64,000 nucleotides of DNA. It comes from Chryseobacterium ginsenosidimutans (GTDB taxonomy: Bacteria; Bacteroidota; Bacteroidia; Flavobacteriales; Weeksellaceae). The notes beneath the pieces are model-generated. The model searched no databases. It was not told where the DNA came from and saw nothing but the letters and a program-made list of their open reading frames with translations. Each line of letters opens with the position of its first letter. Positions within the stretch are counted from its first letter, which is position 1. Positions 2,697-48,721 of the stretch are shown here, in pieces. Position numbers and translations under genes: made by a program. Where the stretch lies: NCBI RefSeq assembly GCF_030823405.1, contig NZ_JAUSXC010000001.1, positions 4,221,001-4,285,000 on the forward strand, given 5' to 3'.

Positions 2697-5600
2697 ATGA
2701 ATTTATCCTTGAAAACTCATCTAAAAAATACTTCTGTTGTGCTCCGAGTAGTATTATCCGCCGGAGTTCTCTATTCCTGCGCAACATATAACGTAAAAAA
2801 GGGTAAAAACTTATCTGAAATAGGAAATTCTGATATAAAATCCGAAAACGATTTTAGAATTTTCTTAATAGGTGATGCCGGAAATGCAGATGAGCCTCAA
2901 TCTCAGCATACTTTGAATCTTTTAAAAGATCAATTGGAATCTGCAGGCAGTAACTCAATGCTTATATTTTTGGGTGATAATATTTACCCGAGCGGAATGC
3001 CTAAAGAATCTGATAAAGATTATGCTTTAGCAAAACAAAAGCTTGAAAATCAATTAACCATCACAAAAAACTTCAAAGGCAAAACATTGGTTATCCCAGG
3101 AAATCATGATTGGTACAATGGTTTAGACGGATTGAAATCCCAGGAAGAACTTGTGAAAAATTATTTTAATGATAAAAAAGCTTTTCTCCCAAAAAATTCT
3201 TGCCCGATTGATGATATCAGCCTTACAAAAGACATTAAATTAATCGTAATTGATACAGAATGGGCATTGGTAAACTGGGACAATTATCCTGGAATCAATA
3301 AAAACTGTGATATCAAAACCCGTGAAGATTTTTTCGATGAATTTAAAGATTTAATTAATAAAAATCAGGACAAAAAGATCATTGTTGCTCTTCATCACCC
3401 GATTATCAGCAGCGGAACTCATGCAGGCTTTACCTCCGCAAAAGCTAATCTTTATCCTTTCAAAAGTAAAGTTCCTGTTCCGGGAGTTGCAAGTCTATTG
3501 AATGTCGTGAGAAGTTCTTCGGGAGCAAATCCTGAAGATATTAACAACCAACATTATGCAGATCTTTCAAACAGATTAAAAAGTATTGTTCAGGAAAAAG
3601 AAAATGTCATTTTTGTTTCCGGGCATGATCATAATTTACAATATCACAAAGACAGAAATATCAGACAGATCATCAGTGGGGCGGGTTCAAAAGTTGATCC
3701 GGCATCGATTGGTGAAAAAACAGATTTTTCTTATGGAGGAAGTGGTTTTGCTGTTTTAAATATTAGAAAAGATCAAAGTTCTGATGTTGAATACTTTTCT
3801 ACAAAAAATAACAATTTAGAAAAACTAGCACAGATTCAGGTGATTGATAAGCCTAAAGAATTTGTAAATAACTATCCGAATTCTTTTCCATCTGCAGTTT
3901 CATCAACAATTTACAATAAAAAATTAACGCAAAAAGGAGGAATCTACAGATGGCTTTGGGGAGAACATTACAGAAAATATTACGGAATGCCGATTGAAGC
4001 TCCGACAGCTAATATTTCTACACTTGACGGCGGTTACACTCCTTTTAGAGAAGGAGGAGGAAATCAGTCGAACAGTTTACGCTTAAAATCTCAGGACGGA
4101 CAGGAATTTGTAATGAGAGGTGTTAAAAAAAGTGCCGTTCGTTTCCTTAATAATATGGCTTTCAAGAAAAGTACATTTGGAAATGAATTAAACAATACGT
4201 TCCCTGACAAATTCTTGCTTGATTTTTATACTACCAATCATCCGTTTACTCCATTTTCAATTGGAAATATGGCAGATAAGCTGAATATTTTCCACAGTAA
4301 CCCAAGATTATTTTATATCCCTAAGCAGCAGGCTTTAGGTGAATATAACACGAATTATGGTGATGAAATGTATATGATAGAGGAACGTTTTTCTTCAGAT
4401 CCGAAAACTCTGGCAACTCTTGATAATGCAAAAGATATTGTTTCAACGGATGATGTTCTGAAAAATTTCAATAAAAACTACAAATATTCAGTCGATCAGG
4501 AATCTTACATCAGAGCAAGGATTTTTGATATGTTAATTGGTGACTGGGACAGACATTCCGATCAATGGAAATGGGCAGAATATCAGGACGGCGACAAAGT
4601 AATTTATAAACCGATTCCAAGAGACAGAGATCAGGCTTTCAGTAAATATGATGGGGCTGCTTTCAAAATTATCATGAATATTCCGGCAATACGCCACATG
4701 AAAACTTTTAAAGAAGATATACAAAGTGTGAAATGGCTTGCTATGGAGCCTTATCCTATAGATTTAATTTTCCTTAAAGGCTCAACTGAAGAAGAGTGGA
4801 TTGCACAGGCAAAATATATTCAGGAACATTTAACGGATAAAGATATTGATGATACCTTCAACAATTTACCAAAAGAAGTTAAAGACGAAACAATTGCCGA
4901 TATTCAAAGAAAACTAAAAATAAGAAAGACCAAATTACAGTCTTACGCTTCACAATATTACGATGTTTTACAGAAAAAAGTTCCGTTAGCAGGAACGGTA
5001 AATCCTGATAAATTTGTGATTACAAAAACAGGAAATTCTGTTAACGTAAAACAATATAAATTAGATAAAAACAAAGAAAATCCTGAGTTGGTTTTTGAAA
5101 AAACATATAACGATTCAAAAACTAAAGAACTTTGGGTTTACGGATTGGAAGATGATGATATTTATGAAGTTTCCGGTGATGGAAAACCTAAAATGAATAT
5201 CAGATTAATTGGCGGTTACAATAATGACACCTATAATGTGGCCAATGGAAGTAAGGTGAAAATTTATGATTTTAAATCACAAAAAAACACGTACAATACC
5301 CATGGCGCGACGAAAAATATTTCGGACGATTATGACATCAACACGTATAATTACAAACACCCTAAATATAACTTCTTTGCAGGTTATCCAAATGCAGATT
5401 ACAATCCCGATGACGGCGTGATTCTTGGTGTTCTGGCAAATTATACGGTAAATAATTTCATTCGCTCTCCTTACACTCAAAAACACAGCTTAAAAGTAAA
5501 CTTTTATACTGCAACAGGTGGCTTTAACGCTATTTATAAAGGAATTTTCAAGAAAGCAATTTCGAGCTGGGATTTCAATATTGATGCAGGATTTACAACT

Positions 5601-45774: not shown

Positions 45775-46602
45775 ATGAACCTCAGCGATTTACAAAATAT
45801 AAGCGAAAATTTTGGGAATACTCAAAGAATGCCTGTCTTATTTTTGGGACACGGTTCGCCTATGAATGCTATTGAAGAAAATCAGTTTGTACAGGGATTC
45901 CGAAAAGCGGCGACTGAAATTCCAAAACCTAATGCCATTTTGTGTATTTCTGCGCATTGGTTTACTGACGGAACCAAAGTAACCGCGATGGATATGCCGA
46001 AAACAATTCATGATTTTGGAGGTTTTCCACAAGCTCTGTTTGATGTTCAGTATCCTGCACCTGGAAATCCTGAACTGGCAAGAGAAACTGCCGAACTTTT
46101 ATCACCTGTTTTGGTTGAGGAAGATCATAATTGGGGTTTGGATCACGGCGCTTGGTCGGTAATAAAACACATGTATCCTGAAGCAGATATTCCTGTGGTT
46201 CAGATGAGTATAGATTATACTAAACCTCCCCAATATCATTTTGATTTAGCCAAAAGATTACATAAACTCCGCGAAAAAGGTATTTTAATTATCGGAAGCG
46301 GAAATATTGTTCACAACCTAAGACTGATTGACTGGAGAAATATTAACACAGTCGGAGCCGGATGGGATTGGGCAATTGAAGCTCGTGAAAAAACCAACAA
46401 CTGGCTTTTGGACGGAAATTTTCAAAATGTAATTGATTATCAAAAACAGGGAACTTCTCTGCAATATGCAGTTCCAAGTCCTGATCATTATCTGCCGTTG
46501 ATCTATACTTTAGGTTTAAAAGATAAATCTGAAAACCTTGTTTTATTTAATGATGAATTGATTGCCGGATCGTTGAGAATGACAAGTGTAAGGATTGGTT
46601 AA
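45775..46602 (+). CDS. ygiD: 4,5-DOPA dioxygenase extradiol family protein
   Basis: 275 residues, LigB-type ring-opening dioxygenase family. Motifs: LFLGHGSPMNAIE (metal His), ISAHWFTDG (second His), WGLDHGAWSVI and GSGNIVHNLR. In E. coli YgiD converts L-DOPA to betalamic acid precursors in vitro; the natural substrate here is not known. It follows YceI after a strong terminator, so it likely has its own promoter. Confidence 0.92.
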   Translation: MNLSDLQNISENFGNTQRMPVLFLGHGSPMNAIEENQFVQGFRKAATEIPKPNAILCISAHWFTDGTKVTAMDMPKTIHDFGGFPQALFDVQYPAPGNPELARETAELLSPVLVEEDHNWGLDHGAWSVIKHMYPEADIPVVQMSIDYTKPPQYHFDLAKRLHKLREKGILIIGSGNIVHNLRLIDWRNINTVGAGWDWAIEAREKTNNWLLDGNFQNVIDYQKQGTSLQYAVPSPDHYLPLIYTLGLKDKSENLVLFNDELIAGSLRMTSVRIG

Positions 46603-46604
46603 AC

Positions 46605-46629
46605 AAAAACCGGAAGATAAATCCTCCGG
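46605..46629 (-). terminator. Terminator of the cystatin-like gene
   Basis: CCGGAAGAT / ATCCTCCGG stem (one mismatch) with a U-tract on the minus transcript. Confidence 0.75.
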
Positions 46630-46653: not shown

Positions 46654-46923
46654 TTAAATTCTAGTAATAGAAACAACATACGGAGTGCCTTCTATTGGGC
46701 TATAGATTTCCACAATTGCTTCCCAAATCACTTCTGAAGGCGGCATAGAAGCTGTACATTTAAAACGGTAATTGATACCATTTACAACTTGCGTAGATAC
46801 TGAATTGGGTGTATATTTTACTCCAACAAATCCTCTCATTGCTTCATCAAATACTTTTTGATCTTCTTGTGTAAGCGGGTGATACGCTGTCCAGCCACCT
46901 AATAATAACTCTTGTGTTGACAT
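46654..46923 (-). CDS. Cystatin-like small protein
   Basis: 89 residues, no signal peptide. It follows the cystatin/stefin plan: Gly9-Gly10 near the N-terminus (the GG before the first strand), a helix (about 17-33), QVVNG at 45-49 (the QxVxG first hairpin loop that enters the papain active-site cleft) and NYRFKCTA after it, then VEIYSPIEGTPY at 71-82 in the place of the cystatin second hairpin (PW-G). It lacks the paired disulfides of secreted cystatins (only Cys56), like stefins. Likely an inhibitor or relative of a papain-type protease inhibitor; unproven. Leader is about 160 nt. Confidence 0.7.
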   Translation of the reverse strand: MSTQELLLGGWTAYHPLTQEDQKVFDEAMRGFVGVKYTPNSVSTQVVNGINYRFKCTASMPPSEVIWEAIVEIYSPIEGTPYVVSITRI

Positions 46924-47091
46924 AATACTTTATTCCTACTCTTTTGGCCTTTCGGATTTACGCCCCGTTTATAAATGGTTTCTGGACTCCATGGTTATAG
47001 TTTTTTTTAATACAGATTGTTGAAGGAATATTGAAAATAGTTGATATTATCAATCTACCGTTTAACAAAAAGTATCGTTGTGATCACATGA

Positions 47092-47099
47092 CAAAGTTA
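47092..47099 (-). promoter_or_regulatory. Possible -7 box of the cystatin-like gene
   Basis: TAACTTTG on the minus strand in the 301-bp gap 46924-47224, about 170 bp before the ATG; no clear TTG at the usual distance. The remaining gap holds no gene that I can see. Confidence 0.4.
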
Positions 47100-47224
47100 T
47101 TATAGATAACATGAATATTTTAGCGTATATATACCAATTTTTCACCTTAGTAGAAACACTTACTCAATAGTCATTTTTATCAGAGATTATTACTTTGTTC
47201 TTTCAATGATTTTTAGTTGAAATC

Positions 47225-48721
47225 TTACTGAACAGCCTGCAAAACATTAATATTTCCGTATCCGTACTCTGAATTCGGACTTGGATAATACGTTGCCGAC
47301 TGTCTCATTTTATTCAAAACCTGATCTCTTGTCCAGGATGGATTTTTGGACCAGACCAAAGCTGCAATTCCTGCTGTAGAAGCAGTTGCTACAGAAGATC
47401 CACCAACATAATCTGTCTGTCCGTTATAATAACTCAACACCGGAATATTATTTTCTGAAGCTCTTTCCATCTGATACGTAAAATCTATTTCAGAACCGGA
47501 ATGGCAAACGTCGCATTTTTGATTGGAAGTATTTTCTTTAACACCCGTTATTGCCTGCGCTTCCGGCATCCATGCAGGGAAAATTACCCCTACGAAAGTC
47601 GTAAAACTTGTTGAAGTCCCTCCTGCACAGAAAATTAATTTCCCTTTCGAATACGCATATTTAACACCATCTTCAATTTTTCCGACAGAGAAAATGTGTC
47701 CCATTGACATGGAAATGATTTTAACGTTATTGTTATTTCCCAGTTCTGTAAAAGCGATTTTCACCCCGTTTTGTTCGTGATAACCGTCCAACACTACATT
47801 TGAAGCGGCTCTGTACGTCACCAGATTCGCATTATAAGCCACACCAACAGGCTGCCCCTGATTATTTCTTGGTGCTGCCATTGTCGAAGCCATGCTTGTT
47901 CCGTGTCCGCATTTATCGGCAGAACCGTCATAGCCTGTACTCCACGGCCAAACTGAATCTACATACACTCCGTTTTTGCTGATTGTTCTTCCGGATGAAA
48001 GTCCGTTATTAAAACTGCTTCCTAACAAACTTTGTTCAGGAGAAACCCCGCTATCAATTACTCCGATTGTAATTCCGGCTCCCGTGCTGTAACTCCAGGC
48101 ATTAATAATATTATGTTTTGTGAATGACCAAGGTGCTTTTGCATTTGGGGTTACTGTTGTATAATCTGTTGTACTCAAAGCCGTAGATTCAAAACCGCAG
48201 CCTGAAGAACTTCCGCTGGATTTTGCTGTTCCGTTTAACTTATTTTCATTTTCAAAATAATGATAATCTGCAGGTTCCAGATAACGGATATTTTTCATTT
48301 TTCGGAGTGCAATTACAGTTTCCTGTTTTTCAATAGCAACATCAATCTGATTTAAATATTGATCTGAAGACAATAAAATTCTTTCAGTTTTTCCTTCATA
48401 TTTTTTAATCAAATCTAAAATTTCATTTTCAATCGATTTACTTTCAGGATCTAAGTTTCTGTCAAAAGAAGATCCGAATCCTATAGAAGCGATCTTATTT
48501 CCCTGAAAGATTCCACTCCACACAAAATGATCTGAAGATTGGTTCCAGGAAAACCTGCCTTTCGTTTTGATGGTTTCGTTAATTTTTTCATTGATTTGTT
48601 TTGCCGTCAAAGGATCTTTCTGACTGACTTCAATGTTGTACGAATTATTTTGAAGGTCGTCTCTGTTACATGCTGTGAAAACAAAAAACAGCATGAGTAA
48701 ATAAAACACATGATTTTTCAT
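47225..48721 (-). CDS. S8 family (subtilisin-like) serine peptidase, lipoprotein
   Basis: 498 residues. Lipoprotein signal ending in FTAC (Cys18), a propeptide-like region (about 30-155) and the peptidase domain (about 200-498). Catalytic triad: Asp223 (GVIDSGVS), His273 (GHGTSMAS) and Ser443 (GGSSVATAS). The oxyanion-hole position, normally the Asn of AAGN, reads FCAGGTS (about 364-370), so the Asn is missing. A CDVC pair sits at 403-406. Probably surface or periplasmic. The cystatin-like gene lies downstream on the same strand after 301 bp. Confidence 0.9.
   Translation of the reverse strand: MKNHVFYLLMLFFVFTACNRDDLQNNSYNIEVSQKDPLTAKQINEKINETIKTKGRFSWNQSSDHFVWSGIFQGNKIASIGFGSSFDRNLDPESKSIENEILDLIKKYEGKTERILLSSDQYLNQIDVAIEKQETVIALRKMKNIRYLEPADYHYFENENKLNGTAKSSGSSSGCGFESTALSTTDYTTVTPNAKAPWSFTKHNIINAWSYSTGAGITIGVIDSGVSPEQSLLGSSFNNGLSSGRTISKNGVYVDSVWPWSTGYDGSADKCGHGTSMASTMAAPRNNQGQPVGVAYNANLVTYRAASNVVLDGYHEQNGVKIAFTELGNNNNVKIISMSMGHIFSVGKIEDGVKYAYSKGKLIFCAGGTSTSFTTFVGVIFPAWMPEAQAITGVKENTSNQKCDVCHSGSEIDFTYQMERASENNIPVLSYYNGQTDYVGGSSVATASTAGIAALVWSKNPSWTRDQVLNKMRQSATYYPSPNSEYGYGNINVLQAVQ

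Follow-up and report, generated by a model that had tools for sequence, protein, structure and literature searches.

The frame at 46654-46923 of the window (the whole 64,000-nucleotide stretch of Chryseobacterium ginsenosidimutans DNA that was analyzed) is a real, conserved gene, and profile, fold, and motif evidence supports descent of its product from the cystatin superfamily. On the basis of sequences and structure models, we favor with moderate confidence the reading that this cystatin would inhibit foreign papain-like cysteine proteases, for example those of bacterivores, when it is released on lysis. Bacterial stefins have been known since 2009, but the RNA leader and promoter that surround the window cystatin look new.

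The gene and the predicted fold of its product

The cystatin gene and the elements of its product that are discussed below are as follows.

46654..46923, minus strand: cystatin coding sequence (ATG open reading frame), 89 amino acids, short-helix stefin type, no signal peptide
46891..46899, minus strand: codons of G9-G10-W11, the N-terminal trunk, identical in all 31 aligned rows
46837..46869, minus strand: single short helix, residues 19-29, in both AlphaFold2 models
46777..46791, minus strand: codons of the first hairpin QVVNG (45-49), with Q45, V47, and G49 invariant
46684..46698, minus strand: codons of the second hairpin P76-I-E-G79-T80, with P76 and G79 invariant
46610..46629, minus strand: CCGGAGGATTTATCTTCCGG, a hairpin followed by a T run, likely a terminator (read by eye)

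A LigB-type dioxygenase gene (45775-46602) converges on the cystatin gene and likely shares the terminator hairpin with it; an S8 subtilase gene (47225-48721) lies upstream on the same strand as the cystatin gene. Tails resembling the hairpin and T run were also seen by eye in relatives. The genome of the strain, one 4.30 Mb contig, holds a single cystatin copy. A cystatin match (E <= 0.001) was found in 35 of the 148 same-genus genomes and not in the other 113; among the positive genomes, the frame of G066 contains stops and the match of G134 is in two pieces. LigB adjoined the cystatin gene in all 29 short same-genus loci (L002-L030), and the S8 gene was present within the DNA examined in 22 of them. 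This synteny indicates that the cystatin gene has been inherited at one site in the genus. A functional link with the S8 subtilase had synteny as its sole support and was dropped. Purifying selection on the cystatin is clear, with a median dN/dS of 0.175 when the window gene is compared with 31 relatives and of 0.126 across 47 pairs of equal length and at least 85% identity. Two loci carry decayed copies with in-frame stops (L063 and L064); one of them belongs to the same genus, the other to a different family of the order.

Two AlphaFold2 models, predicted from alignments of 24 and 31 rows with pLDDT values of 90.6 and 91.5, respectively, both display the cystatin fold of one helix on a four-stranded antiparallel sheet, with strands at residues 36-46 (36-47 in the second model), 49-60, 65-76, and 82-88. 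In a Foldseek search of the PDB, rows 1-31 of the best 50 were all cystatins, stefins, or scaffolds derived from cystatins. Their TM-scores, normalized by query length, were 0.51-0.71, and one row only had an E value <= 0.001. The matches included 1stf, stefin B in complex with a cysteine proteinase, and the second model gave the same picture. The best row in a viral structure library was a giant-virus cystatin-domain protein (E 0.014).

The single 89-residue sequence matched no Pfam family, including the cystatin family PF00031 proposed as a check in the preliminary description, and no NCBIfam family. PF00031 was weakly matched by 7 of 24 and 8 of 21 family members in two overlapping sets (best E 0.025), and a whole-genome search with PF00031 gave no match, though the positive controls gave none either. 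With the single sequence, the best phmmer match in the PDB was 6i1m, a type 1 cystatin of Fasciola hepatica (E 0.0046), and a designed repeat protein ranked second. The same order was obtained with a 24-row profile (E up to 10), for which 15 of the 17 matches were cystatins (6i1m, 3.4e-6; designed repeat protein, 4e-4). A wider 21-row profile gave 18 cystatins among 19 matches, 6i1m again being the best (E 1.4e-7). With a 31-row profile (E up to 0.05), five of seven matches were cystatins (best 9.2e-7), and the top match (4.5e-9) and the third were designed repeat proteins, whose scores add up weak repeats; the top match was rejected as an artifact of this kind. These profile matches and the cystatin structures at the head of the Foldseek results bear out the description of the product as cystatin-like, and its own tests gave a mixed result: the predicted fold agreed except in helix length, but the single sequence had no PF00031 match. 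The "long helix" of that description was wrong, because the helix has 11 residues (19-29) in both models and the alignments to 6i1m show about 8 extra residues in 6i1m around the helix end.

A 31-sequence alignment, drawn from the genus, another genus of the family, other families of the order, viral contigs, and green sulfur bacteria with identity down to 36%, has 15 invariant columns: G9, G10, W11, F25, G34, V35, Y37, P39, Q45, V47, G49, N51, Y52, P76, and G79. Stefins touch papain through the N-terminal segment and the first and second hairpins. Eight of the 15 invariant columns fall inside the 13 contact positions (9-11, 45-49, and 76-80), with a hypergeometric p of 8e-5 for contact elements chosen after the alignment was seen. 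Gly9-Gly10 and QVVNG were found in the 89-residue frame as first described. IYSPIEGT (residues 73-80) is indeed present at the site of the cystatin motif IYxxPWxG, but PI replaces PW and one residue fewer precedes it.

The N-terminus is hydrophilic and by eye contains no hydrophobic stretch, in agreement with the initial reading that a signal peptide is absent, and the protein has one cysteine (C56), so no disulfide is possible. As a single domain of 89 residues with an N-terminal Gly and a QxVxG first hairpin, it has the features of stefins (type 1). Type 2 cystatins carry PW in the second hairpin, two disulfides, and a signal peptide, none of which was seen in the window protein (the signal peptide as judged by eye). 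Eukaryotic stefins (stefin A/B, Dictyostelium cystatin A2, and Fasciola 6i1m), which are among its best fold and sequence matches, share its fold, N-terminal Gly, and QxVxG hairpin. Unlike them, the window protein has an 11-residue helix, a longer one being usual in eukaryotic stefins, a GGW start, and a PxxG second hairpin, and its identity to them in the Foldseek alignments is 16-28%.

The portion of Kordis and Turk (2009; PMC2784779) used here claims the first demonstration of bacterial stefins and cystatins, which are proposed there to inhibit host proteases. The window family resembles the stefins of that portion in belonging to the cystatin superfamily in bacteria, in its patchy distribution, and in being of a stefin lineage without a signal peptide. 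The same portion reports a stefin in Chlorobium tepidum, and the window family has green sulfur relatives; for Bacteroidetes it lists three genomes with stefins and two with cystatins, none of them Chryseobacterium, and, in contrast to what is described below, mentions no RNA leader, shared promoter, or phage copies. A 2012 review (PMC3594739) states, in the part consulted, that more experimental data on bacterial cystatins are needed. Among the open-license papers listed on bacterial cystatins and on cystatins in connection with Chryseobacterium, prophages, and amoebae or bacterivores, none apart from those cited here concerned the window family by title and abstract start, and the open-license literature yielded no tested function for bacterial cystatins.

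The RNA leader and the promoter boxes

The region upstream of the cystatin gene contains the following elements.

46929..46997, minus strand: Rfam RF03081 (DUF805 RNA), located in the 5' leader, which scores 68.0 bits (gathering score 51.1) and covers positions 1-68 of 68
47092..47099, minus strand: TAACTTTG, a pattern match to the -7 element TAnnTTTG
47125..47134, minus strand: GTATATATAC, a GTA-N4-TAC box (pattern) that starts 35 bp upstream of the -7 element
47152..47161, minus strand: GTGTTTCTAC, a degenerate upstream box (pattern)

When the coordinates of the two genus-wide searches were compared, 34 of the 35 positive genomes had the RNA next to the cystatin gene, with 30 matches over the gathering score and 4 under it; the broken G066 copy alone had none beside it. 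The RNA itself occurs in 102 of the 148 same-genus genomes (E <= 0.001), 87 of which are over the cut-off. RF03081 reportedly stems from a 2017 comparative-genomics study. Its name points to DUF805 protein genes, whereas in the genus the RNA leads cystatin, PixA, phosphatidylserine (PS) decarboxylase-like, lectin, tyrosinase, and propeller genes. Searches of the open-license literature gave no paper on the DUF805 RNA, and the papers on DUF805 were, by title and abstract start, not about RNA.

The genes behind the RNA were surveyed for 110 of the 150 RNA matches listed (30 + 80 loci), of which 109 gave a first open reading frame; 24 cystatin-adjacent rows, 2 own-genome rows, 14 low-scoring rows, and all unlisted matches were left out. 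Single linkage of BLASTP matches, with one representative scanned per class, gave 37 exported-looking proteins (representative RCC1-type), 29 PixA/AidA-like proteins (named through the own-genome protein of locus L046), 15 members of a 124-aa family, 10 cystatins, 7 PS decarboxylase-like proteins, 5 members of a 197-aa family, and 2 jacalin-like proteins. The single cases were a PI-PLC with a ricin-type lectin, a SCO4226-like protein, a tyrosinase, and a TNT-like protein. The representatives of the 124-aa family (L075) and the 197-aa family (L094, 196-197 aa; also L113) had no Pfam or NCBIfam match, and L075 also had none in PHROGs. A RebB/R-body identity considered for the 124-aa family was rejected, as Pfam, PHROGs, and NCBIfam were all without a match. 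In the strain's own genome, a PixA-family inclusion-body gene (L046, 2725-3363) stands directly behind an RNA of 66.1 bits (C1:336724-336793, plus strand) with GTATAAATAC upstream, and genes for a LodA-like oxidase and its FAD partner (L047, 1534-5962, near C1:3077000) stand behind a weak RNA match of 38.8 bits. At the latter locus, a lipoprotein-like open reading frame that has a TNT match (26.6 bits against a Pfam cut-off of 27) follows.

TAnnTTTG is what we take to be the consensus of the Bacteroidota -7 promoter element. We compared 31 cystatin upstream regions (L001-L030 and L039, with six duplicate loci, L036, and L038 excluded). All 31 contained a box, and a box started exactly 35 bp before TAnnTTTG in 30 of them, the window's included; the distance in the remaining one (L025) was 61. 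Two exact boxes 24-28 bp apart were present in 27 of the 31 regions, the window's not among them. A strict promoter pattern gave zero matches in the own genome, because the window's own upstream box is degenerate.

Among the surveyed RNA matches (L075-L104 and L108-L187), 72 of 109 cases had GTA-N4-TAC in the 250 bp that precede the RNA, compared with 7.9 +/- 2.7 (maximum 16) in 200 mononucleotide shuffles, a count uncontrolled for relatedness. The box was found in 27 of 29 PixA, 15 of 15 124-aa, 10 of 10 cystatin, 7 of 7 PS decarboxylase-like, and 5 of 5 197-aa cases, and was rarer in the exported-looking class (8 of 37) and in the six rare cases (0 of 6). With a relaxed -7 element and classes assigned by sequence pattern, the box lay at 61 bp in 20 of 23 PixA cases and at 35 bp in 5 of 5 197-aa cases; a fixed spacing of 35 or 61 bp was not seen for the 124-aa and PS decarboxylase-like genes. 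The boxes at fixed spacing suggest that at least the cystatin, PixA, and 197-aa genes share an activator. The exported-looking class mostly has the RNA in common with them but not the boxes.

A second form of the DUF805 RNA, in which GAAGC...GCU replaces GGGGC...GCC in an apparently paired change (by eye), leads exported-looking RCC1/propeller-like proteins, mostly without boxes (L104, L114-L116, L121-L123, L125, L127-L131, and others).

Relatives beyond the genus

The nine named relatives found comprised seven Chryseobacterium records, in which the gene has the same neighborhood as in the window, one from Flavobacterium, and one Crocinitomicaceae MAG. The alignment search gave a match in 21 of 395 genomes of the order and in 26 of 395 genomes of the phylum; 15 of these 26 belong to one family, which we assign to the green sulfur bacteria because the chlorosome protein PF02043 was present in 6 of 6 genomes tested. 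By eye, 10 of the 11 loci inspected in this family (two of the 10 identical) have a signal-peptide-like N-terminus before the cystatin domain, and one (L191) does not. The ten loci (L192-L201) thus place cystatin domains behind signal-like N-termini in a photosynthetic group.

Outside the Bacteroidota, we covered genome contigs in one scan with the single protein, viral contigs in one scan with the alignment, and phage and plasmid sets. Four IMG/VR viral contigs (L065-L068; 54.7-56.4% G+C in the DNA examined) encode the cystatin with 58-61% identity, the match lying at 5001-5267, and the conjugative plasmid pNK6d of Bradyrhizobium diazoefficiens encodes it with 61% identity. Two Persicobacteraceae plasmids carry relatives at 44-45%, one with two tandem domains, and 50,697 phage records held no cystatin relative. 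In one viral contig (L065), the cystatin gene sits between a CI-type repressor gene and exonuclease/Gam genes; besides the CI-like repressor, the exonuclease, and the Mu Gam-like protein, the neighbors include an anti-repressor and a membrane protein of the PHROG category moron. Another (L068) carries an integrase. The four contigs are probably prophages of Proteobacteria, a host group suggested by their G+C content, by GGAG before the start codon, and by their likeness to the Bradyrhizobium plasmid copy.

RNA matches that exceed the gathering score were obtained for the Flavobacterium locus L036, L058, each of the four viral contigs, and the Bradyrhizobium plasmid, and weaker ones, under the threshold, for L059 and L060. 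Scans at the gathering score gave no RNA in L038, L061-L064, or the two Persicobacteraceae plasmids, and none appeared up to E 0.1 in the eight green sulfur loci scanned. An RNA pattern scan of viral contigs gave three matches that were discarded: two had no Rfam match and apparently lie in coding sequence, and the third was at a contig end with a cut RNA match. By eye, a GGAG lies some nine bases ahead of the ATG in the viral and Bradyrhizobium leaders; none was seen at that distance in the Bacteroidota leaders inspected, a few of which had GGAG inside the 3' end of the RNA. The GGAG in the viral and Bradyrhizobium copies would be an added Shine-Dalgarno site, which suggests that the RNA is kept for something besides simple ribosome binding.

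The proposed target and role of the cystatin

In the mechanism that we favor, a three-part wedge formed by the GG(W) segment, the QVVNG hairpin, and the PIEG hairpin would block the active-site cleft of a papain-like protease. The gene would be expressed from a promoter with putative GTA-N4-TAC activator sites and a DUF805 RNA leader, which would also serve PixA/AidA-type and other proteins, and the cystatin, having no export signal, would accumulate inside the cell. It would act when the cell is lysed by a bacteria-eater, in a protist phagosome or a nematode or insect gut, and lower the digestive cysteine-protease activity of the eater. The window protein has no recognized export route, so release on lysis is an assumption, which weakens this reading. 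An inhibitor that acts on behalf of a digested cell would fit both the missing signal peptide and a foreign target. Action on host cathepsins upon release, which the preliminary description had considered, is possible and close to this reading, bacterivores being the broader target class.

A foreign target is suggested by the scarcity of strong papain-type matches in cystatin-positive genomes (counts below), and the signal-like N-termini of the green sulfur relatives likewise favor this reading. The company of the cystatin also bears on the nature of the target. The part of PMC9060813 consulted describes AidA as necessary for virulence in C. elegans and the PixA proteins as inclusion-body proteins tied to stationary phase. 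The RNA and boxes that the cystatin shares with PixA/AidA genes therefore point to dealings with eukaryotes. The consulted part of PMC10143992 links AidA to plant colonization and LuxR-type control and suggests a plant-colonization role of PixA/AidA in Ralstonia and Photorhabdus, which would count against action on eaters in particular. The missing tryptophan of the second hairpin and the short helix of the models would count against inhibition as such, and the want of a cystatin match in 113 of the 148 genomes of the genus weakens the reading as a whole. Nor is the RNA by itself the mark of a set of genes against grazers, because it also leads the large exported-looking class, 37 of the 109 proteins surveyed.

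More tentatively, and with some doubt on our part, one activator and the DUF805 RNA may govern a stock of unexported proteins directed against eukaryotes, namely the cystatin, PixA/AidA, the PS decarboxylase-like proteins, and the two unnamed families, which would act only once the cell is eaten. The RNA-plus-cystatin unit may have spread to phages and to a plasmid in other phyla, where it would serve as a portable gene against digestion. Fixed box spacing of 35 or 61 bp was observed in three of the five classes of this proposed stock. Mushrooms probably employ their cytoplasmic lectins and protease inhibitors in a similar way, after being eaten.

The preliminary description had suggested that the protein may regulate an endogenous cysteine protease. 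Both partners would be cytoplasmic, and the own genome does contain one PF00112 (Peptidase_C1) match, which covers model positions 164-205 in a 404-aa frame that is probably a C1B aminopeptidase. This genome has no strong papain-type (C1A) match, defined here as PF00112 at E < 1e-8, and across the genus strong C1A matches (27 of 148 genomes) and the cystatin tend to exclude each other, a strong match being present in 1 of 35 genomes that have the cystatin and in 26 of 113 that do not (Fisher p 0.005, with no correction for phylogeny; the C1 family alone was searched). These two findings disfavor an endogenous papain-type target. Moreover, some C1 match is present in 137 of the 148 genomes, the short kind being listed for many with and without the cystatin, and the cystatin-positive G033 has no C1 match (E <= 0.001). 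We thus consider regulation of the bacterium's own protease very unlikely.

The cystatin fold may instead have been repurposed to bind a non-protease partner in the cytoplasm, with loss of protease inhibition. The lack of a leader, the short helix, the loss of PW, and the failure of the single protein to match PF00031 would all suit such a change, and a 2025 paper (PMC12419801) proposes, in the part consulted, that a cystatin-like domain of polymorphic toxins serves in their packaging or deployment. We regard this as rather doubtful, since eight of the 15 residues conserved without exception from Chryseobacterium to green sulfur bacteria and viral contigs belong to the inhibitory wedge and the signal-like N-termini of the green sulfur relatives argue for extracytoplasmic work. 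Protection against cysteine-peptidase weapons of bacteria or phages (toxins, bacteriocin-processing peptidases, or defense peptidases), with the viral and plasmid copies as counter-defense or superinfection genes, would account for the four viral-contig copies, for the place of the L065 copy beside a CI-type repressor and exonuclease/Gam genes and near a moron-class PHROG protein, and for the copy on a conjugative plasmid. However, the cystatin gene in the genus is chromosomal, at one site, and has the promoter boxes of PixA-type genes, and no defense genes were seen among the RNA-led genes (no dedicated defense library was scanned), so that this explanation appears improbable.

Inhibition of foreign papain-like proteases thus being our preferred reading, the family provides a small, highly conserved example of a bacterial cystatin with a regulatory context that consists of an RNA motif, putative activator sites, and named genes that share them. 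It makes two questions directly testable, namely the targets of bacterial cystatins and the function of the DUF805 RNA. That the RNA is retained in the viral and plasmid copies suggests that the RNA and the inhibitor work as a unit across phyla.
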